Shown here: positions 27,388 to 36,692 of the stretch, piece by piece
How positions within the stretch are numbered: position 1 is the stretch's first letter
How the letters are laid out: each line of letters begins with the position of its first letter
Source of the DNA: Rhodospirillales bacterium
GTDB lineage: Bacteria > Pseudomonadota > Alphaproteobacteria > JAJFIK01
DNA length: 64,000 nt
Assembly (NCBI GenBank): GCA_021775005.1
Contig: JAJFIK010000078.1
Location: 1-64,000 of the forward strand
Reading direction: 5' to 3'
Made by a program: the position numbers and the translations under genes
The notes under the pieces: generated by a model
What the model saw: the letters and a program-made list of their open reading frames with translations, nothing else
Databases searched by the model: none
Told to the model about the DNA's origin: nothing

Positions 27388-28833
27388 GTGAAGACCGAAG
27401 CGATAAGCACGGCGCGTGAGCCTGCGGCAGCAGCACCAAATGCTGCGCCGCGACCGCGTTTGGGCGCTCAGCTTTCCCGGCAAGAGGTCGCCCTCTTGGC
27501 CTGGGCGCTTTCGTTCGCCTTGCTTGCGGTGGCCATCAGCCTCCTTGCCCGGTCCGGCCCCGTTAGCGGGGTTGATCTTCTCGGGCTCGGCCTTTCGGTT
27601 TTTCTGCTGGGGTCCGGTTCAGGTGCCTGCGCTGTGATTGCATTGCGGCTGATCCCCAAAGTGAAGGTCAATCGCGTCACCGAGCTGGGCCACTTTGAAG
27701 AAATCTTTGAGGCCTCCCCCAATGGCATCGCCATCTGGGATCAGCACGGCCATCTGATACGCGCCAACCCGCGATATGCCACAATGTTGGGCATTGAGAA
27801 TCGGGACATCCTCAACGGCGCGCCGCGATCTATGATTGAAGGGGCGAACGGCATTCCCCTTACAGATATTTTCGCCAGCAAGGACCGCGCGCTGCGCATT
27901 GGGGAGCGAATTTTGTTCCCCATCAGGCGTCCGCTGGCCTCTGGCGAGATGATTGAAACACTGCTGGATGTCACCGCCCTGAAGCAGCGGGAGCAAGCCA
28001 TCATTCGGTATGAAGGCGAAATTAAATCTTTGGTCAAAGAGTTCGCCGGCATCCGCAGCGAAGCTGCGTCCCTGCAGGAGGTGATCGAAGGCCTTGAAAT
28101 TTCCCTCAAGGATGAGCGCAAACGTGCTGACACAGCCATGCGCGCGCGCACCGAATTCCTCTCGCATATGAGCCATGAGCTGCGCACGCCCCTGAACGCC
28201 ATCATCGGTTTTGCCGACATGATCCGCAGTCAGGTGTTTGGACCCTTGGGTCACGACAAATACGAAGAATATGCAGGAGACATTTTTGACAGCGGCGAGC
28301 AGTTGCTGCGGCATATTGCTGACATTCTGGACGTCTCACAGATGCAAGCCGGCGAGCTTCACCTGGATCGGCAAAAGATTGATCTGGAACTTATTATCGA
28401 CGCGGTGCTCGACAATGTGCGCTCTGATTTGACGGCAAATCAAATCACCCTGTTGCAAGACATCAATCACCTGCCCATGGCGTTTGCAGACCCCATGGCG
28501 GTGCGCCAGATTCTCACTCATATGCTCTCGAACGCCATCAAGCACACGCCGCCACGCGGGCGCATTGCCATCAAGGGCGAGAGCGACCTGAACAATATAT
28601 CGATCATTATTGATGACACAGGCAGCGGCATTTCCGCTGACCTCAGGGAGACCCTGGATCAACCCTTTACCCAAGTGGGCGGCGACCCATCGATTACGCG
28701 GGAAGGCGCTGAGGGATTGGGCATTGGTATTGCGGTAAGCACCTCCCTGGCACGTATCAATGGCGGCTGCCTGACCATCGACAGTGAACCAGGATACGGC
28801 ACCACGGTTCGTCTATCGCTCCCGCGCCGCTAA
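27388..28833 (+). CDS. PAS-domain sensor histidine kinase, PleC/DivJ-like
   Basis: This 481-residue inner-membrane histidine kinase has two membrane spans at about residues 34-54 and 63-86. A PAS domain covers about 100-195 (EEIFEASPNGIAIWDQHGHLIRANPRY) and a coiled coil about 200-255. The HisKA helix carries the phospho-accepting His263 in FLSHMSHELRTPLNAIIGF. An HATPase domain follows, with SNAIKHTP (N box), DDTGSGIS (G1) and GLGIGIAVSTSLA (G2). The sequence after the H box (FGPLGHDKYEEYAGDIFDSG) is typical of alphaproteobacterial PleC/DivJ/PdhS kinases that act on DivK/PleD-type receivers. That partner assignment is inference. The GTG start follows GGGGAG. An exact CtrA box lies upstream. 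Confidence 0.88.
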   Translation: MKTEAISTAREPAAAAPNAAPRPRLGAQLSRQEVALLAWALSFALLAVAISLLARSGPVSGVDLLGLGLSVFLLGSGSGACAVIALRLIPKVKVNRVTELGHFEEIFEASPNGIAIWDQHGHLIRANPRYATMLGIENRDILNGAPRSMIEGANGIPLTDIFASKDRALRIGERILFPIRRPLASGEMIETLLDVTALKQREQAIIRYEGEIKSLVKEFAGIRSEAASLQEVIEGLEISLKDERKRADTAMRARTEFLSHMSHELRTPLNAIIGFADMIRSQVFGPLGHDKYEEYAGDIFDSGEQLLRHIADILDVSQMQAGELHLDRQKIDLELIIDAVLDNVRSDLTANQITLLQDINHLPMAFADPMAVRQILTHMLSNAIKHTPPRGRIAIKGESDLNNISIIIDDTGSGISADLRETLDQPFTQVGGDPSITREGAEGLGIGIAVSTSLARINGGCLTIDSEPGYGTTVRLSLPRR

Positions 28834-28852: not shown

Positions 28853-29464
28853 TTAGTCCCGGTCGCGATCTCCATCCCCATAGGGCCGTTGCCGATCTTC
28901 GCGGCTTTCCTCTCGCTGCTCGCGACGGCGATGACTGCGACGATGGAAATCCGGAACACGCTCGCGCAGCTGTTCGTTCATGACGGCGCGTTCTTCAGGG
29001 GTCAGATCGGCAATGAGGGCGGCCATGGTTTCATGGATCGTGAGCGACAGCGCCGCATCCGCCTGCCGCGACAATGCAAAGGCGTCTTCCAGCGCCACCG
29101 CATCAAATGGTGTCGCTCGCATCACTTCTAATGAGGCAATACGTGCTTCCCCGGATGCACGCATCATTTGCCTGATCACCGGACCTTGTTCATCAAGGAC
29201 CGCTATGGCGTCAGCCCGTGCGCTGTCTGGCAGCACCCGAACAAGATCGCGCGGGTCAAACATTTCGCCGGGGCGACCGGGGCCATATTCGCTGTCACGA
29301 TCAATCCCGCCATGGGCACTGACGCGATCAAGCCATCTGTCCGAGCTCGCGCGCGCCCCAACCACCGCGCCAATAAAAAACGCATTGAGAGCCAAGGAGA
29401 GCACCAGACCGAAAATGAGCCAAATGCCGGTACCGCCGGAAGGAGTGCTTTGCTGATCGCTCAT
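28853..29464 (-). CDS. Periplasmic heavy-metal sensor/resistance family protein (CnrX/Metal_resist-like)
   Basis: This 203-residue protein has an N-terminal membrane anchor (about residues 15-37), a helical periplasmic domain, and a charged Arg/Glu/His-rich tail. The helical hairpin with TIHETMAALIADLTPEERAVMNEQLRERV resembles the LTPEQR segment of CnrX, CpxP and ZraP-like periplasmic sensors. It would sense metals or envelope stress and pass the signal to the one-span protein encoded just upstream. Clear metal ligands cannot be assigned. ATG 29464 overlaps the upstream stop by 4 bases (ATGA). It is the last gene of the four-gene leftward operon. Confidence 0.68.
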   Translation of the reverse strand: MSDQQSTPSGGTGIWLIFGLVLSLALNAFFIGAVVGARASSDRWLDRVSAHGGIDRDSEYGPGRPGEMFDPRDLVRVLPDSARADAIAVLDEQGPVIRQMMRASGEARIASLEVMRATPFDAVALEDAFALSRQADAALSLTIHETMAALIADLTPEERAVMNEQLRERVPDFHRRSHRRREQREESREDRQRPYGDGDRDRD

Positions 29465-29970
29465 TGCACATCTCCCAAGTCCCAATCATCGATCTCAGGC
29501 GAGCCAAAGTAATAGGCAAACAAGTCCTCGTTTTGAGATTCTGCGTCCGTTGAGACGTTGGCGCCACTGAACCCGAAAAAGAACCCTACCATCAAGGAGG
29601 CGAGAAGAAGCCCTGCGGGCCGCGCGATTCCCGTCTGCGGCCAAAGAAATGCCAACACATCCGCGATCCGGTTTCGGATTGTTCGCTGATCTGACGCGAC
29701 TTGAGCTGACCTCGTTTGCGGGCGCGGTGCGGTGTCCAAAACATGACCCAGGAGTGCCGCACTTGCGTCGGCGGTTGGCGCTGCATCAAGCATGTCGTCA
29801 AGCAGCCGCGCCTGCGCAACATATTGCGCCGCTTCAGGGGAGTTGGCCACAAAGGCTTCGCCACGATCACGCTCAGCGCTTGGCCAGCGCTCTGGATTGG
29901 CACCATATGCCTCTATGATCGCTTGAAAACGATCCATCGTCATCCCCCCGGATGTCATATCGTTCGTCAT
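29461..29970 (-). CDS. One-span membrane protein, putative anti-sigma factor
   Basis: This 169-residue protein has a cytoplasmic N-terminal part, one membrane span at about residues 118-136 (GLLLASLMVGFFFGF) and a short acidic periplasmic tail. I recognise no strict anti-sigma motif. The N-terminal segment MDRFQAIIEAYGANPERWP followed by AE.. helices is common in small alphaproteobacterial proteins encoded after ECF sigma genes. It overlaps the sigma gene by 4 bases at its start and the CnrX-like gene by 4 bases at its end. That position is why I call it an anti-sigma candidate, comparable with CnrY. Confidence 0.6.
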   Translation of the reverse strand: MTNDMTSGGMTMDRFQAIIEAYGANPERWPSAERDRGEAFVANSPEAAQYVAQARLLDDMLDAAPTADASAALLGHVLDTAPRPQTRSAQVASDQRTIRNRIADVLAFLWPQTGIARPAGLLLASLMVGFFFGFSGANVSTDAESQNEDLFAYYFGSPEIDDWDLGDVQ

Positions 29971-30629
29971 TGCCCTATTCCTAATAATTCGCCCGCCTGT
30001 GGGCGTAGTAAGTCCTTTAATTTGCGCCGACCACGGGCCAGCAAAGATTCCAACGCTTCAACACTTATTTCCATCACTGCTGCCGCCTCGATATTCGAGA
30101 GCTCCTGTGTATGGCACAGGGTAATGGCGATTCTTTGCCGCACCGGCAAACGCGCTATCGCCTCATTTACACGAGCGGCAAGTTCCTTTTCATGCAGCGC
30201 CTCACCGGGGCCTGCTGCATCATCTTCCAACTCAGGAAAATCATCGCCTAGAACTTCGCGCTTTTTTCGCATGCGGTCATAGCAAAGATTAAGCGTAACG
30301 CGATGCATCCAGGTGGCGAACTGGGCCCGGCCGGGCTCCCACGTCGGGGCTTGTTTCCAAACCCTGAGGAAGACCTCTTGTGCAACCTCTTCGGCGTCAG
30401 CCTGATTGCGCAAAACGCGGTTCGCCAGGCCCACTGTGCGACCCAAGTGGCGGTCCACAAAGGTGCGGATAGCAAAGCTGTCACCGCGCGCGATCTCAAC
30501 CAGAAGCGCAATATCCGGATCGTCACCAGAGGATTCCGGCGATGGTGTGGCCCGCACGACGGTGCCTCCGTTTGTGTTCTGCCCTGTGAGAGATCGTCTC
30601 ACAGAATGCCGCCGGTTGACCACACCCAT
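29967..30629 (-). CDS. ECF-family RNA polymerase sigma factor
   Basis: This 220-residue sigma-70 family protein has region 2 at about residues 50-115 (FVDRHLGRTVGLANRVLRN, DAEEVAQEVFLRVWKQ, ATWMHRVTLNLCYDRMRKK) and region 4 at about 150-205 (RLPVRQRIAITLCHTQELSNIEAAAVM, SLLARGRRKLKDLL). An acidic linker separates the two and there is no region 3, as in the extracytoplasmic-function group. It begins 26 bases after the EF-hand gene stop and overlaps the next gene by 4 bases. Its target promoters are unknown. The operon probably activates itself, as related systems do. The first 40 residues are not conserved sigma sequence, so a later start is possible. Confidence 0.9.
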   Translation of the reverse strand: MGVVNRRHSVRRSLTGQNTNGGTVVRATPSPESSGDDPDIALLVEIARGDSFAIRTFVDRHLGRTVGLANRVLRNQADAEEVAQEVFLRVWKQAPTWEPGRAQFATWMHRVTLNLCYDRMRKKREVLGDDFPELEDDAAGPGEALHEKELAARVNEAIARLPVRQRIAITLCHTQELSNIEAAAVMEISVEALESLLARGRRKLKDLLRPQAGELLGIGQ

Positions 30630-30655
30630 CCGATAACGCGCGCCCCTCGAAGAAA

Positions 30656-31177
30656 TTAGCCGTCGTCGCCGTCAGGCCCGTGACCGCGCTGATGACGCCC
30701 ACGTTCGCCGCGACCTTCGTGCCTCATGCGACCGACAATTTCCATTTCTGTCTGGGTCACGACACCGTTTTCATCCAAGTCCGCACCTTCAAACCGGTTC
30801 ATGGCCATGGTTGAAAACTCATTCTCGTCGATGACGCCATTGTCGTTTTCATCGGCATGGTCAAATCGAGGGCTTCCTTCACGGCTTTCCCGTCGCTCGC
30901 TGCGCCTTGCCTCATGGCGTTCGCGGCGCGCCTGATGACGCGCGTCATGGAAGGCTCGGGCTTCGTCTTCGCTGAGCGTGCCATTGCCGTCAACATCCGC
31001 GTCGTCAAACGCATTTGCCGATTGCGCCTCGGCTTCCGATTGGGTGATTTGGCCGTCGCCATCGGCATCGAGTTCGTTGAAGCGCTCGGCGGCAAAGTCG
31101 CCTGGCTCGGCCCATGCCACACTTGCAGCAACGGTGCCAGCCATGAGGACGCCCAAAAGGGGTGATGTAATTTTCAT
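30656..31177 (-). CDS. Secreted EF-hand calcium-binding protein
   Basis: This 173-residue protein begins with a signal peptide (MKITSPLLGVLMAGTVAASVAWA). Four EF-hand loops follow: DADGDGQITQSE, DVDGNGTLSEDE, DENDNGVIDENE and DLDENGVVTQTE. An Arg/His/Glu-rich linker separates the second and third loops, and the tail is His- and Gly-rich. It should bind calcium, or perhaps other divalent metals, in the periplasm. ATG 31177 has GGAG 6 bases before it; the upstream ATG adds nine residues that would spoil the signal peptide. It leads the ECF sigma operon and may be its sensor or one of its targets. Confidence 0.85.
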   Translation of the reverse strand: MKITSPLLGVLMAGTVAASVAWAEPGDFAAERFNELDADGDGQITQSEAEAQSANAFDDADVDGNGTLSEDEARAFHDARHQARRERHEARRSERRESREGSPRFDHADENDNGVIDENEFSTMAMNRFEGADLDENGVVTQTEMEIVGRMRHEGRGERGRHQRGHGPDGDDG

Positions 31178-31218
31178 TGTTGTCTCCAGTTTTTCTAAAA
31201 CCATCTGGGCCCCCCAAG

Positions 31219-31474
31219 ACCCGTACAGATAGTCAAACGGGTTAGGCCGGAAAGTCCGTCGATCCGATTCTACTCGTGAAATCAGAGGGATGGGCGTTTC
31301 CTGCCTTAACCGGACCGGGAAGCGAGCCGATCAAGGTACGCGGGGTCATAAGGCCGGGCCATGCCCCAGCGGAAACGCCCATCCAAGAGCGGCAAGCTCA
31401 GCGTCTTGGTCACGGCATCGGGAGGGGAAGGGCGACGCCGAGAGTAACGGACTGAGGGGATTTGCTTGCCGCTC
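31219..31474. other. Strongly folded non-coding block, candidate structured RNA or mobile-element remnant
   Basis: The 336 bases between the EF-hand gene and the GcvT-like gene carry no convincing gene. They carry stacked inverted repeats instead. One is ACCCGT/ACGGGT (31219-31224 with 31237-31242). The 14-bp perfect stem GGATGGGCGTTTCC/GGAAACGCCCATCC pairs 31288-31301 with 31371-31384. The 11-bp perfect stem GAGCGGCAAGC/GCTTGCCGCTC pairs 31387-31397 with 31464-31474, with CTCAG/CTGAG nested inside. Two back-to-back hairpin domains of about 90-100 nt result. A 78-codon frame on the plus strand (31290-31526) follows the fold and shows no protein-like features. I could not match it to 6S, SRP, tmRNA or RNase P RNA by eye. 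Confidence 0.55.
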
Positions 31475-31513
31475 AGAAGATCAAACGGCGGCGCAGATCA
31501 AAATCCGTCGCCC

Positions 31514-32590
31514 TCAACGCAAATAATTTATCTCTGGTGTAATGATGCCATTGCTCAATTCCAATTTGACCGGCGCGGTTACCCCAGAGCGATCAATCAA
31601 GGCAAGACCGCGCGCAATGGCGTGTTCCGGCGCGGCATAAGATGACGTGACCGTGCCGACCTTCTTTCCCCCGCTGCTAAGGCGCGCTGCGGTTAAATCA
31701 AAGGCTTGCGGAATTGAAATTTGCGCGAAAGCGCGACCACCGGGGGATGCCCGCAGCGCCGTTGCGCCGGAAAACGGGCGACCATCTAGCTCAACCAAAT
31801 GTGCCCAGCCCAGCTCAGCAGGAAAGGCGCACTCGTCTCGACGACGGGCAATTGTTGCCGGTACAAAGTCCTGGCCTGCGCGGGCTATGCCTTGATCGAT
31901 GCGATGGCGCTCCTGCGCGGCCATACCAACAGCGACCAGCCCCAACGCAGTACCTTGTTTGGCAAATCTGTTCCAAAGCAGGCCTGCATCTTCGGCCCCC
32001 ACCTGCACAAGGGTAAGCCGATCGGCGGGCAGGTCGATCAAAGTGATATCAATGCCGCGCGCGGAAAGACGCTGCACAAAGCCATCCTGCCCGATGGGGG
32101 CGTTAAGGCCGGTGGCGTTCAGAACCTCAGCTCGTGCTGGCCCGCCCACGCCAATCATGGCATCGGCGCCGGGCACAACAGAAACATCTCTGCCGGCGTC
32201 CATATCCGTGAGGCGGGCTCCCACCACCTCGTTGGCGATGACAATAAATTCCTCTTCGCCAGTGCGCGCGATGATGCATTTATCGATGACATAGCCGCTG
32301 GCCACACACATGAGCGCTTCGCGGGTCTCCCCTTGGCTGAGGTCGGATACCCGTCGCGTGAGAAGGCGGTCGAGATGATCGCCTGCGTCCGACCCCGCAA
32401 CGGTCACAGATGGTTGCGGCGATAGGTCTGCCAATCCGGCCGTGCGCACAATGGCGCGCGCTTCTGCTGCAACATCGCCGAATGCAGTTGGAACCGTAAA
32501 GCCGTTCCAAGCTTGCCACTGGTTAGTGCGAGATTGCTCGGCAGTTCGCTCATGTAGCGGCGTGGGGAGCTGAATGATGGCGCGGGTCAT
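31514..32590 (-). CDS. GcvT-like aminomethyltransferase/folate-binding protein
   Basis: This 358-residue protein has the GcvT/YgfZ fold with N- and C-terminal GCV_T domains. It shows DHLDRLLTRRVSDLSQGETRE, then GYVIDKCIIARTGEEEFIVIAN, and later GTALGLVAVGMAAQERHRIDQGI. T-protein usually has Asp-Asp in GxIxDD; here it is Asp-Lys. Folate binding and one-carbon transfer are expected but not certain. Its start overlaps the upstream FAD oxidoreductase by 4 bases, the third member of an overlapped three-gene operon. The partners suggest oxidative demethylation with capture of the one-carbon unit. Confidence 0.82.
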   Translation of the reverse strand: MTRAIIQLPTPLHERTAEQSRTNQWQAWNGFTVPTAFGDVAAEARAIVRTAGLADLSPQPSVTVAGSDAGDHLDRLLTRRVSDLSQGETREALMCVASGYVIDKCIIARTGEEEFIVIANEVVGARLTDMDAGRDVSVVPGADAMIGVGGPARAEVLNATGLNAPIGQDGFVQRLSARGIDITLIDLPADRLTLVQVGAEDAGLLWNRFAKQGTALGLVAVGMAAQERHRIDQGIARAGQDFVPATIARRRDECAFPAELGWAHLVELDGRPFSGATALRASPGGRAFAQISIPQAFDLTAARLSSGGKKVGTVTSSYAAPEHAIARGLALIDRSGVTAPVKLELSNGIITPEINYLR

Positions 32591-34152
32591 GAGGCAGCCA
32601 CATCTTCCAGCACGGCCTCAGCGCACAAAAGACCTGGGAGCCCGGATATCCCGCCGCCGGAGTGCGCACCGGCGCTGGCAAAATAAAGCCCCCCAAGGAA
32701 AACATCCCCTGCCCGCGCGCGGGCCTGAGGCCGCAGCGATGCCAACTGATCAAAGGAAAGATTTGCGTGGTGCCAATGCCCGCCCGGTGCACCGTATTGC
32801 CCCTCAATGTCTTTGGGGGAGAGAAATTCGGCGTGCTTCACCAAATCGGCGAGACCCGGCGCGTAATATCCAAGCGCCGCAACAAGCCGATCACGATAGT
32901 CATCCTGGCATCTCATCCATCCGCCTTCAGGCTCATAGGGCACATGCATCACATTGGCGCAGAGAATGTGATGGCCCTTTGGCGCCAGCGACGCATCATG
33001 GGTCGTGGGAATGGTAATTTCAAAAGCCGGGTCGCGCGGCAGATGCCCCACGCTCGCTTCAGCGAAACTATGCTGCAGATGATCAATAGAGGGCGCGATG
33101 ACCAAGCGACCCTTGAGGAGGGTTTGATCCTGCAGACCGCGAAATTCAGGAACGCCGCTCAGCGCCAGATTGAGTTTACCCACCGTGCCGTTCACCGCGC
33201 GCTGACGAAGGTCAGCCACAAGGTCCGGCTCCAAGTGCTCATTGCCCACCAGCTTGGTCAGTGCTTGAGCGGGCGCCAAAGCAGCAATGGTGGCGCGCGC
33301 GCCCCACTCTTCGCCAGCACTGGTTTGCACACCGCGCACTACACCATCGTGCACAAGGATCTTTTCCACTTTGGTATCTAGCAATATTTCTGCGCCGGCA
33401 TTTTGTGCAGCTGCCACCAGCGCTGTGGCGATGGTCCCGATCCCGCCCTGGGGATGGCCAAGGGCCATGGGAACTCCTGACACTTCGCCCGCTGCGCGCA
33501 GCGCCAAGGCGGCAATCGCTGCCTCCTCAAAGGGCCCCGCCCCGCCCAGACCTGCTTCCAGGGCACAGGCCCCGCGCAAGAGATCCGTATCAAATCGGTC
33601 ATTGAGCATGTCGGCGGCACTGGAGAACAAAGCCGCAGAGGCGCGCTCAGCCGTTCCGGCGTCAAGGCCATTGAGAAGTCGCGCTACTTCTTCCTCCCAC
33701 TTGCCATTTTGTGCGGGAACTTCTGAGAGCGCGCGGGCAAATCGCCCCAACGCGCCAAGGTCTTTGAGATATGTTTCATAGGCTTTGCCATCTTGCGCAG
33801 AAAATCCTGCAAGGGCGGCGCGCGATGCCCATTTGTCGAGCGAGAGCGGCAGCACCTCCCCTTCATTGCCAATCGCTGTGGTGGACATGCGGCGCTGGGT
33901 CAGTCGCAAACCGTGACGGTAAAGCCCCAAATCACGAATGATGCGGGGGTGAAGCCCTGGATAAACATGCGCGCAGCGCGAAACATGGTAGCCCGGCCAA
34001 ATTTCTTCAGTAGAGGTCATGCCCCCTAAAACGTCGCGCGCTTCCAGCAGCAATACTTTTTGCTTGGCGCGCGCAAGATATGCGGCGGTGACAAGACCGT
34101 TGTGCCCACCGCCGATGATAATGGCATCATAGGTGACATTGGGCCCGCTCAT
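32587..34152 (-). CDS. Phytoene-desaturase-like FAD-dependent oxidoreductase (PYROXD2/CrtI family)
   Basis: This 521-residue flavoprotein starts with the dinucleotide-binding motif IIIGGGHNGLVTAAYLARA followed by LLLEARDVLGG. It ends with LGGLYFASAGAHSGGGISGLPG, the C-terminal FAD-binding block of the CrtI/amine-oxidase superfamily. The middle resembles the NAD(P)/FAD oxidoreductases related to PYROXD2 more than true carotenoid desaturases, and no other carotenoid genes are present. The substrate is unknown. It overlaps the gene upstream and the gene downstream by 4 bases each. Confidence 0.85.
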   Translation of the reverse strand: MSGPNVTYDAIIIGGGHNGLVTAAYLARAKQKVLLLEARDVLGGMTSTEEIWPGYHVSRCAHVYPGLHPRIIRDLGLYRHGLRLTQRRMSTTAIGNEGEVLPLSLDKWASRAALAGFSAQDGKAYETYLKDLGALGRFARALSEVPAQNGKWEEEVARLLNGLDAGTAERASAALFSSAADMLNDRFDTDLLRGACALEAGLGGAGPFEEAAIAALALRAAGEVSGVPMALGHPQGGIGTIATALVAAAQNAGAEILLDTKVEKILVHDGVVRGVQTSAGEEWGARATIAALAPAQALTKLVGNEHLEPDLVADLRQRAVNGTVGKLNLALSGVPEFRGLQDQTLLKGRLVIAPSIDHLQHSFAEASVGHLPRDPAFEITIPTTHDASLAPKGHHILCANVMHVPYEPEGGWMRCQDDYRDRLVAALGYYAPGLADLVKHAEFLSPKDIEGQYGAPGGHWHHANLSFDQLASLRPQARARAGDVFLGGLYFASAGAHSGGGISGLPGLLCAEAVLEDVAAS

Positions 34153-35636
34153 AGGGACACCTCAGCGCCGCGCGCGGACAACTCATGCCCGAAGCTAAGG
34201 CCCTGGATCGCCCGTTGCAGGCGGGTGGCCAGGGACGCGTCGCCGCCAATCTCGTTGGCAAGTCCCGATGCGACCCCAAAGGGGCAGCCATGAGACCAGC
34301 CCATCGCCGCTTCAAAATCATCCGGGCTGTCAAAACGCCAGTGCTTGATGGCACCATCAATGTCTGACCAGAACGGCTTCAGATCCCTCACCACTTGGGC
34401 GAAAAGTGTTTGCACCTGGTCTGGCGTCCAATGGCCCCCGATTGGGGATTGCGGCAGGAAGTGAATGATAACGCTCAACATGGCGCCTTCGCCCGTAGGC
34501 GTGACGACACATTCCATCGGAAGATGGTCGGCAATTAGATTGAGCCGACAGGTATTCGCAGCCGCCGCGGCCATGCGCGGCTCTGTGTTGAGATAGATCG
34601 GGCCTCTGCCCAATTCACCTAAGGGGTTGTCGCTATTGCCCAGCTGAATGACAATGCGGCCAAAGCCCCCTGTGCTCCGCGCCGCGCCAATGTCTGGCCC
34701 GAGCTGCCCGGGCAAAATAGACCACTCAAGCAGCCCCAGCGCCGTCGCCTTTAGATCAAGGCTCGAGGCCACAAGCGCGGCGCTGTTGAAACTGCCGTCC
34801 GCCAAAGTAATTCCTGTGACGCGACCCTTTTCTACATTGATGTCTGTCACCGCCATGCCCATGCCCACATCCACATTGGCATCATGGAGGAGAGATAAAA
34901 GCGACGGTGTGGCATCAAGAAACTCATCGCGCACAAAACCCAGATCAAGGCGCGGTTGGCTCGCGTCGCTGAGCGGCCCGTGGAGAAACTGCAATAAAGA
35001 TCCCGCATCGCCGGGCCCCGCCGGTCCGCAAAACAGCGAAGGGCCCGCAAGGGCGGCCTGCGCCAGAGGGTCCGTCATCATTGAGGCCAATTGATTGCTC
35101 AGCGGCCGTATCCACAATGCCAGGGCATGGCGGAGTTGGTTCTTTGGCAGATCAAAGTTAGAGACCAATTCTTGTGCAGCGGAGGACAAAGCCTTGCGGT
35201 TCGCTGGTTTGACTTGGGCTAGATTGCCTTGGGTCAGTGCTTCGTTCATACGCGCAACTGAGGCTGTAAATTCCTGCCAACGCTGGGCCTCATATGGGGT
35301 CCGTGCATCCAAAGCGCGGCGCGCCAGGGCGGGCACCGCCGGCAGTGTTAAGGGCGTCCCCCCGCGCCCAACGGCGGTGATGTGCTCAGCGGGGGCCCAA
35401 CCTAGATCACTTGAGTCCAGTCCCAAAACGCGCAAAGCAGACATGTCCTGTGCAGTGGCCACAGAGCGAAAGGCTGGCAGGGGTACTTTGCCCCAGGTCT
35501 CAGCGGTGCCAAGACGCCCCCCCAGATAGGGGCGCGCGTCGAGCAGCTTTACTCGCGCCCCCGCTTTTGCCGCGCGGACGGCGTGGACGAGGCCCTGCGG
35601 CCCGCCACCACTGACGATCAGGTCATGTTTATCCAT
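34149..35636 (-). CDS. FAD-dependent oxidoreductase, CrtI-like superfamily
   Basis: This 495-residue protein begins DLIVSGGGPQGLVHAVRAAKAG and then LLDARPYLGGRLG, a Rossmann FAD site. It ends MGWSHGCPFGVA..., where the usual C-terminal GGG-rich FAD block is shortened. It is a distant relative of the neighbouring oxidoreductase and may be its partner or a diverged subunit. ATG 35636 is where similarity begins; the frame is open for 79 more codons upstream with no family sequence. It is the first gene of the leftward trio and is read divergently from speE across about 156 bases. Confidence 0.8.
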   Translation of the reverse strand: MDKHDLIVSGGGPQGLVHAVRAAKAGARVKLLDARPYLGGRLGTAETWGKVPLPAFRSVATAQDMSALRVLGLDSSDLGWAPAEHITAVGRGGTPLTLPAVPALARRALDARTPYEAQRWQEFTASVARMNEALTQGNLAQVKPANRKALSSAAQELVSNFDLPKNQLRHALALWIRPLSNQLASMMTDPLAQAALAGPSLFCGPAGPGDAGSLLQFLHGPLSDASQPRLDLGFVRDEFLDATPSLLSLLHDANVDVGMGMAVTDINVEKGRVTGITLADGSFNSAALVASSLDLKATALGLLEWSILPGQLGPDIGAARSTGGFGRIVIQLGNSDNPLGELGRGPIYLNTEPRMAAAAANTCRLNLIADHLPMECVVTPTGEGAMLSVIIHFLPQSPIGGHWTPDQVQTLFAQVVRDLKPFWSDIDGAIKHWRFDSPDDFEAAMGWSHGCPFGVASGLANEIGGDASLATRLQRAIQGLSFGHELSARGAEVSL

Positions 35637-35792
35637 GCAAGTCGTCCAGCGCCTTTCTGCCCCCACGCCCCTTCTCCATAAACCATGAGGCGATGTTGGG
35701 GCAAAGCCTGTCGTTACTTGCGGTTTACAGAGCAGTATTCTGACCTGTAGATGAGCGCCGTTAACCCCTTCGCCCCCAGGTGAGACGGACCC

Positions 35793-36692
35793 ATGACACA
35801 GAAATTCACCGAAGTCCTGCACGATGGATTTGCCCAGAGCTTTGAGGTCACTCAAATGCTGGTGCATGAGCAAACGCAGTTTCAGGATCTGAAGATTTTT
35901 GATACCCCGCTCAACGGCCGCGTCATGGCGCTGGACAACATTGTGCAGATCAGCACAAAGGACGAAAGCAGCTATTCAGAGATGCTAACCCACCTGCCCG
36001 CCTTTGACCTTTTGGCCCAAGGCGCGCGCCTTGCCCGGGTCATGATTGTGGGTGGCGGCGACGGGGCGGTGGCGGAAGAGGCCCTCAAGCACAAGGGCCT
36101 TGAAGAAGTAGTGATGGCAGAGATTGACCCCCGCGTGGTGGAGCTTTGCCGCGAGCACTTCGCTGATCTCAATGCGCCAGCGTTTTCCGACGCGCGCTTT
36201 AATGTGCAAATTGCCGACGCCTTTGAATATCTCAAGGCACCGAAATCCAAAGGTGCATTTGACCTTATTATTGCCGATCGTCCTGACCCTGTGGGGCCAG
36301 CGCAGGTCCTCTTCGACGATAGCTTTTATGATGCGGTATCGGCGGCGCTCACCCCCACTGGGGTGGCGGTGTTTCAGAACGGCGCGCCGTTTTATCAACC
36401 ATCCGAATTGACGGACACCATGCCGCAGTTGCGCAAGGCGTTTAAAAATTGCGGCGTCTTCTACACTGTGACGCCGACCTATGCCGGCGGGCCCATGGCG
36501 CTCACCTGGGCGTCAAACGGATCTGTGTTGGGTCAAGCCAAAGACGAAGTGCTGGACGGGTTATTCAAGTCAGCCGCAGTTACCACAGACTACTACACGC
36601 CACGGCTGCACAACGCGGCGTTCCGCTTGCCAGCATGGCTGGAGCGGCTTGCTCGGGGAGAGGATTGTGCACTTTCTGGCCGGGAGGTTTAG
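35793..36692 (+). CDS. speE: Spermidine synthase (aminopropyltransferase)
   Basis: This 299-residue enzyme transfers an aminopropyl group from decarboxylated SAM to a diamine. It has the SAM-fold motif VMIVGGGDGAVAEEALKH, the acidic strand MAEIDPRVVELCREHF, QIADAFEYL, and the active-site loop IIADRPDPVGPAQVLF in place of the usual DSTDPVGPA. TPTYAGGPMALTWAS near the C-terminus is standard. Its partner gene speD lies 3 kb away on the other strand. The final 4 bases overlap the converging hipA gene. Confidence 0.92.
   Translation: MTQKFTEVLHDGFAQSFEVTQMLVHEQTQFQDLKIFDTPLNGRVMALDNIVQISTKDESSYSEMLTHLPAFDLLAQGARLARVMIVGGGDGAVAEEALKHKGLEEVVMAEIDPRVVELCREHFADLNAPAFSDARFNVQIADAFEYLKAPKSKGAFDLIIADRPDPVGPAQVLFDDSFYDAVSAALTPTGVAVFQNGAPFYQPSELTDTMPQLRKAFKNCGVFYTVTPTYAGGPMALTWASNGSVLGQAKDEVLDGLFKSAAVTTDYYTPRLHNAAFRLPAWLERLARGEDCALSGREV

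Follow-up and report, generated by a model that had tools for sequence, protein, structure and literature searches.

An exported EF-hand protein, an ECF sigma factor, a predicted anti-sigma factor, and a CnrX-fold protein form a recurrent gene module related to the Caulobacter CaBP-SigV pair

We found that the window, i.e., the whole 64,000-nucleotide stretch of Rhodospirillales DNA analyzed here, carries a four-gene module encoding an EF-hand protein, an ECF sigma factor, a predicted membrane anti-sigma factor, and a periplasmic protein of the CnrX/NccX/Spy fold with an N-terminal transmembrane (TM) anchor, which we call EF, SIG, ASF, and MR, respectively. The locus is a further example of the CaBP-SigV arrangement of Caulobacter, and, on balance, we favor the reading that the module is an autoregulated, calcium-linked envelope-stress ECF system, the same as CaBP-SigV, with ASF and MR as the link between the two. 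This reading builds on the gene set, its conservation, a promoter motif, the CnrX fold of MR, and the homology between ASF and an anti-sigma factor of demonstrated function, each established by computation or in published work.

The four genes run leftward at 28853-31177 (−), where the preliminary description had placed them. The EF gene (30656-31177, −) encodes a 173-aa protein read from the ATG at 31177, the likely start within a longest ORF of 30656-31204; this ATG is preceded by a GGAGA-like site and coincides with the end coordinate given earlier. Its product exceeds the Pfam EF-hand cut-offs and has a signal-peptide-like N-terminus and four canonical loops (DADGDGQITQSE, DVDGNGTLSEDE, DENDNGVIDENE, and DLDENGVVTQTE), in agreement with its earlier description as a secreted four-EF-hand protein. 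The spacing between the EF stop and the ATG of the SIG gene (29967-30629, −) is exactly the 26 bases reported, and the 4-base overlaps noted among the last three genes are ATGA sequences at 29967-29970 and 29461-29464, joining SIG to ASF (29461-29970, −) and ASF to MR (28853-29464, −). SIG contains sigma-70 regions 2 and 4 and scores 257.2 bits against a cut-off of 208 for NCBIfam PRK05602 (NF004113). The flanking genes encode a PAS histidine kinase and a GcvT-like protein (Pfam/NCBIfam). The former, a PAS-HisKA-HATPase histidine kinase gene at 27388-28833 (+), converges on MR with a 20-base gap, and the latter belongs to an upstream cluster at 31514-35873 (−) that comprises a GcvT-like folate-binding protein gene (GcvT domain by Pfam) and two tandem overlapping genes resembling those of FAD-dependent oxidoreductases. 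The modules of Caulobacteraceae and Maricaulis likewise have a convergent PAS histidine kinase gene downstream, in local synteny, with a GlnE-like gene upstream.

The gene arrangement is not due to chance, because its order is kept across dozens of divergent loci. Of 96 genomes searched with ASF, i.e., that of the window plus 95 relatives, 27 had homologues, and scanning the GTDB species genomes for the signature [AS]YGA[NDE][PR]xRWP of ASF yielded 212 encoded relatives, the best 80 of which were kept as loci; removal of near-duplicates left 95 loci, whose neighbors were called with profiles built for this analysis. SIG adjoins ASF in 91 of these 95 non-redundant loci, and MR adjoins in 80 of the 88 with sufficient sequence. 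Immediately upstream of SIG, 50 of 90 loci have an EF-hand gene and the other 40 do not (in the broad 96-genome sample by itself, 11/25 have it), which places EF outside the core switch. All four genes occur together in 42 of the 95 loci. The order singled out in the preliminary description thus recurs widely, and its reservation that homologous sigma genes might stand without EF-hand and CnrX-like neighbors was not borne out. Carriers of the module include Caulobacterales, Maricaulis, Hyphomicrobium, Rhodospirillales, several Gammaproteobacteria, and Myxococcota, and the three-gene form without EF is found in Asticcacaulis, Paraburkholderia, and many Rhodospirillales. On the SIG tree, the presence of EF takes 12 changes, compared with 27.8 for shuffled labels; it is clustered on the tree, yet has been gained or lost several times. 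In Burkholderiaceae, some Rhodospirillales, and Ensifer, genes for DUF1800 and DUF1501 proteins are frequent neighbors of the EF-less modules and possible targets of their sigma factors (L048, L049, L058, L070, L073, L078, L084, L098, L099, L106, and L135:4559-6510; named at these loci by sequence reading).

ASF had no Pfam family match and no sequence match among the solved anti-sigma factors in the PDB, and its model had no meaningful structural neighbor in Foldseek. On the other hand, its N-terminal domain matched Asf6, the 98-aa product adjoining the homologous sigma gene rpoE6 in Azospirillum brasilense (L134), with an hhalign probability of 97 (E 8e-11, 74 columns) and an E-value of 7e-17 in a profile search. 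Binding of Asf6 to RpoE6 was shown by two-hybrid assay, and Asf6 represses an RpoE6 target (PMC12826043); ASF is therefore very probably, as judged by sequence homology, the anti-sigma factor of SIG. Asf6 differs from ASF in having 98 residues and no TM segment, and rpoE6 sits in a flagellar cluster. The homology to a tested pair, the universal adjacency, and the topology together make a strong case for the prediction that SIG is held by ASF. The AF2 model of ASF shows a confident helical N-domain of about four helices at residues 12-80 (pLDDT >90); residues 114-136 form a TM helix, after which comes a short tail. The N-domain bears the signature YGAxPxRWP, and G23, W29, and P30 are invariant among 71 sequences, which also keep a GxxxG motif in the TM helix (G129 in 69/71 and G133 in 68/71) and have tails with a mean of 6.9 acidic and 0.6 basic residues. 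A conserved helix motif was not found in these tails (43 observed versus 40.3 expected from shuffled tails). By its sequence, ASF represents an anti-sigma family missing from Pfam, with the signature YG..xRWP. An apparent ASF-MR fusion in L066, a 312-aa ORF that goes out of frame mid-sequence, was treated as a frameshift.

MR matches the Pfam family Metal_resist (PF13801) with 54.6 bits against a cut-off of 29.2, and it is the single match to this family in the window genome. The best solved neighbors of its model are NccX and CnrX, with a Foldseek probability of 1.00 and a target TM-score of up to 0.73, although the E-values are just 0.05-0.6. Its TM segment carries an SxxxN motif (S23/N27) that is invariant in 47/47 sequences, and this motif and the GxxxG of ASF suggest that the two TM helices may pack directly against each other. 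MR is likely to act on ASF via the periplasm and the membrane, i.e., as a predicted co-sensor of the anti-sigma factor, considering the adjacency of the genes, the CnrX fold, and the conserved TM residues.

A promoter motif emerged de novo from a count of two-box words in the regions preceding EF or, in EF-less loci, SIG. One 5+4-mer core occurred in 26 of 80 upstream sequences and in at most 6 in shuffles, and its extended form, CGACGGA-N15-CGTT, was exact in 21/40 EF loci and 8/40 EF-less loci, with none expected from shuffles. The window has an exact copy (CGACGGACTTTCCGGCCTAACCCGTT) at 31236-31261 (−), 59 bases ahead of the start codon of EF at 31177, which we predict to be a SIG-dependent, autoregulatory promoter. 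Exact copies were also present upstream of the modules of Ensifer (L135) and Phaeobacter (L136), two plasmid loci outside the motif discovery set. The promoter of cabp in C. vibrioides, mapped by 5′ RACE, is GGAAA-N13-CGTTCA (PMC13171946); the window motif has the same spacing (GGA-N15-CGTT) and an identical −10 element. There was no clear copy upstream of Azospirillum rpoE8, although the published operon activates itself, which suggests that some family members rely on a variant. Genome-wide, the motif was not enriched in the window genome (2 exact matches versus 6 for the control), and the other matches examined there lie inside coding frames, which points to a very small SIG regulon. A possible second copy with an N16 spacer, which is uncertain, is located at 31484-31510 (−), 250 bases upstream of the first and just past the GcvT-like gene, and two copies likewise precede the EF gene in a genome of the same genus (G002:C157, 1850-1876 and 2052-2077). 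In the two same-genus genomes, exact copies also precede a gene for an exported outer-membrane-barrel-like protein (L155, G002:C31) and one for a lipoprotein-like or Tat-type exported protein (L157, G001:C126), both possible extra targets.

The closest published counterpart is the Caulobacter pair cabp (CCNA_02838), which encodes a periplasmic protein with three EF-hands, and sigV (CCNA_02837), the adjoining ECF sigma gene (PMC13171946, 2026). As in the window, the sigma gene, a homologue of SIG, is immediately preceded by a gene for an exported multi-EF-hand protein, and the window EF protein is, from its sequence, a relative of CaBP, with four loops instead of three. Both Caulobacter genes are induced by EGTA, i.e., calcium depletion, and by acid, and they regulate each other, as separate transcripts with two promoters and not as an operon (PMC13171946). 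The same study leaves the membrane component that connects CaBP and SigV as a question mark, with no mention of ASF or MR. The exact two-primer pattern for the NA1000 cabp gene had no match in the public genomes searched, and a search of the family allowing one mismatch led to four Caulobacteraceae genomes (L128-L131), which match most of the published cabp/sigV primers with 0-1 mismatch, including the sigV-5 primer with one mismatch and the procabp5 primer exactly in three and with one mismatch in the fourth. All four loci carry EF, SIG, ASF, and MR in this order with the promoter motif preceding EF, which there is a 148-codon ORF containing an internal start consistent with 133-134 aa. ASF and MR are thus probably the missing link between CaBP and SigV, as read from close relatives of NA1000, which is itself outside the searched genomes.

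We propose that the N-terminal helical domain of ASF would bind SIG in the cytoplasm and keep it inactive, while the membrane-anchored MR would read the short acidic periplasmic tail and the GxxxG TM helix of ASF. The exported EF protein may couple this complex to periplasmic calcium by contacting MR or ASF. A drop in calcium or an envelope stress such as acid would then cause ASF to release SIG, a direction taken from the EGTA induction in Caulobacter, and the freed SIG would transcribe its own operon from CGACGGA-N15-CGTT, and few others. Calcium, one of the divalent metals suggested earlier as the signal, is plausible by way of the published cabp-sigV pair (PMC13171946). A role for EF as the calcium input is supported by the Caulobacter genetics and by the loci in which EF replaces MR, although it may be an output.

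Should EF be an output, it would be a SIG-controlled, calcium-binding or envelope-stabilizing periplasmic protein, and ASF and MR alone would sense an envelope signal in a Spy/CpxP-like manner, e.g., a misfolded or acid-stressed periplasm. This alternative is a serious one whose chances we put somewhat short of even. Among the genes that follow the conserved SIG promoter, EF comes first, SigV modulates cabp in Caulobacter (PMC13171946), and the sequence of MR is closer to Spy (first in profile searches, E 4e-6) than to CnrX/NccX (8e-4). The modules without an upstream EF gene and the repeated changes of EF presence on the SIG tree agree with it as well, as do the other secreted proteins, DUF1800 and DUF1501, near EF-less modules. 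However, feedback from CaBP acts on both sigV and CaBP's own response to EGTA in Caulobacter (PMC13171946), and in two lineages (L010/L072 and L042) the EF-hand gene follows ASF, taking the place of MR, which was not found there. Moreover, loci with EF have ASF tails of higher acidity (median of 7 versus 5 D/E, p 1.5e-5 with no correction for kinship or for the six tests), which is a hint only; the MR tails showed no difference in charge with EF presence.

A second alternative, which we consider improbable, is a metal system of the CnrYXH type, in which MR would bind nickel, cobalt, or copper and free SIG to induce metal resistance. The window shares with CnrYXH and NccYXH of Cupriavidus metallidurans the set of an ECF sigma factor, a one-span anti-sigma factor, and a periplasmic co-sensor with the CnrX/NccX fold, and the Pfam family of MR is named Heavy-metal resistance. 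However, the residues of the window protein aligned to the CnrX ligands H42, H46, H119, and M123 include no His or Met and are non-ligands, and no column of the MR alignment exceeds 30% His, Cys, or Met, except for the start methionine. The ligand numbering comes from the M123A entry and from what we take to be the CnrX metal site. No heavy-metal efflux genes adjoin the window module, which has the EF-hand gene in addition, and ASF belongs to a different family with a larger N-domain than CnrY and is not a short anti-sigma factor of the CnrY type (class II). MR is therefore CnrX-like by fold and not by metal site, and the nickel/cobalt analogy is valid for the architecture and not for the signal. 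The likeness to CnrH-CnrY-CnrX proposed in the preliminary description holds for the functional unit, the CnrX fold, and the one-span protein, homologous to a demonstrated anti-sigma factor; it does not extend to kinship with CnrY, to which no similarity was found and whose N-domain is smaller than the one predicted for ASF. Nickel, cobalt, and copper are likewise not supported as signals, with the CnrX ligands not conserved and efflux genes not adjoining. In short, the window system works like CnrYXH but falls outside that group in metal ligands, anti-sigma class, and efflux neighbors.

The conserved EF loops of the relatives are ordinary calcium loops (228 loops), with A, T, R, K, or L at position 2 in most, and the window protein has A, V, E, and L there. 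Proline at this position marks lanmodulin loops. Lanthanide sensing by a lanmodulin-like rare-earth binder is very improbable: although lanmodulin is the top NCBIfam match of the EF protein, its 50.4 bits are far under the cut-off of 135 (NF053806), and the loop proline is absent from all window loops.

Parts of the module can be recognized in other systems. The tricistronic rpoE8 operon of A. brasilense, annotated as sigma factor, hypothetical protein, and "heavy metal sensor," is switched on by the sigma factor that it encodes (PMC12826043, 2025); by profile, it is SIG-ASF-MR and thus resembles the window in gene set, but it has no adjoining EF gene. On plasmid CP104104.1 of Phaeobacter sp. 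G2, the genes N1037_22080-22065 show, by annotation only, the order of EF-hand protein, sigma factor, hypothetical protein, and "periplasmic heavy metal sensor" behind an exact motif, and we found no papers on the function of this locus. Its ASF differs from that of the window in having no YG..RWP signature and matches the profile weakly (E 3e-7). This Phaeobacter ASF (L136:3617-4033) keeps the TM helix and the tail, and the loss of its signature indicates that signature-based scans will miss Rhodobacterales members. The ECF26 factors RpoE1 and RpoE4 of Sinorhizobium meliloti, which respond to sulfite, are also autoregulated and have a downstream membrane anti-sigma factor, and a secreted-protein gene heads the RpoE1 operon (PMC3511301). 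However, their anti-sigma factors are of the COG5662 type by description, the head gene encodes a "lipoprotein 15" repeat protein, and no MR gene was reported (PMC3511301); ECF26 membership of the window system was considered and set aside. The earlier statement that no ECF system of this composition had been described needs qualification, as the EF-sigma half is on record in Caulobacter (2026) and the sigma-hypothetical-"heavy metal sensor" part in Azospirillum (2025); in the open-access literature searched, no paper combines all four.

Relative to that literature, what is new here is the assembly of the four-part module, the identification of the ASF family, the consensus promoter, and the demonstration that the automatic label "periplasmic heavy metal sensor" is unsupported for MR proteins without the CnrX metal site. 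The module joins the separate reports on Azospirillum Asf6 and RpoE8 and on Caulobacter SigV into one family, and the consensus promoter provides a base for building reporters. Bacterial sensing of extracellular calcium is poorly understood, and the four-gene module names two candidates for the step between CaBP and SigV. More broadly, it is possible, if rather less than probable, that a calcium-sensing ECF relay consisting of an exported EF-hand protein, a CnrX-fold protein without the metal site, and an undescribed anti-sigma family operates across Pseudomonadota and also in Myxococcota. If so, this relay would bring the calcium status of the periplasm to transcription, completing the Caulobacter CaBP-SigV circuit.
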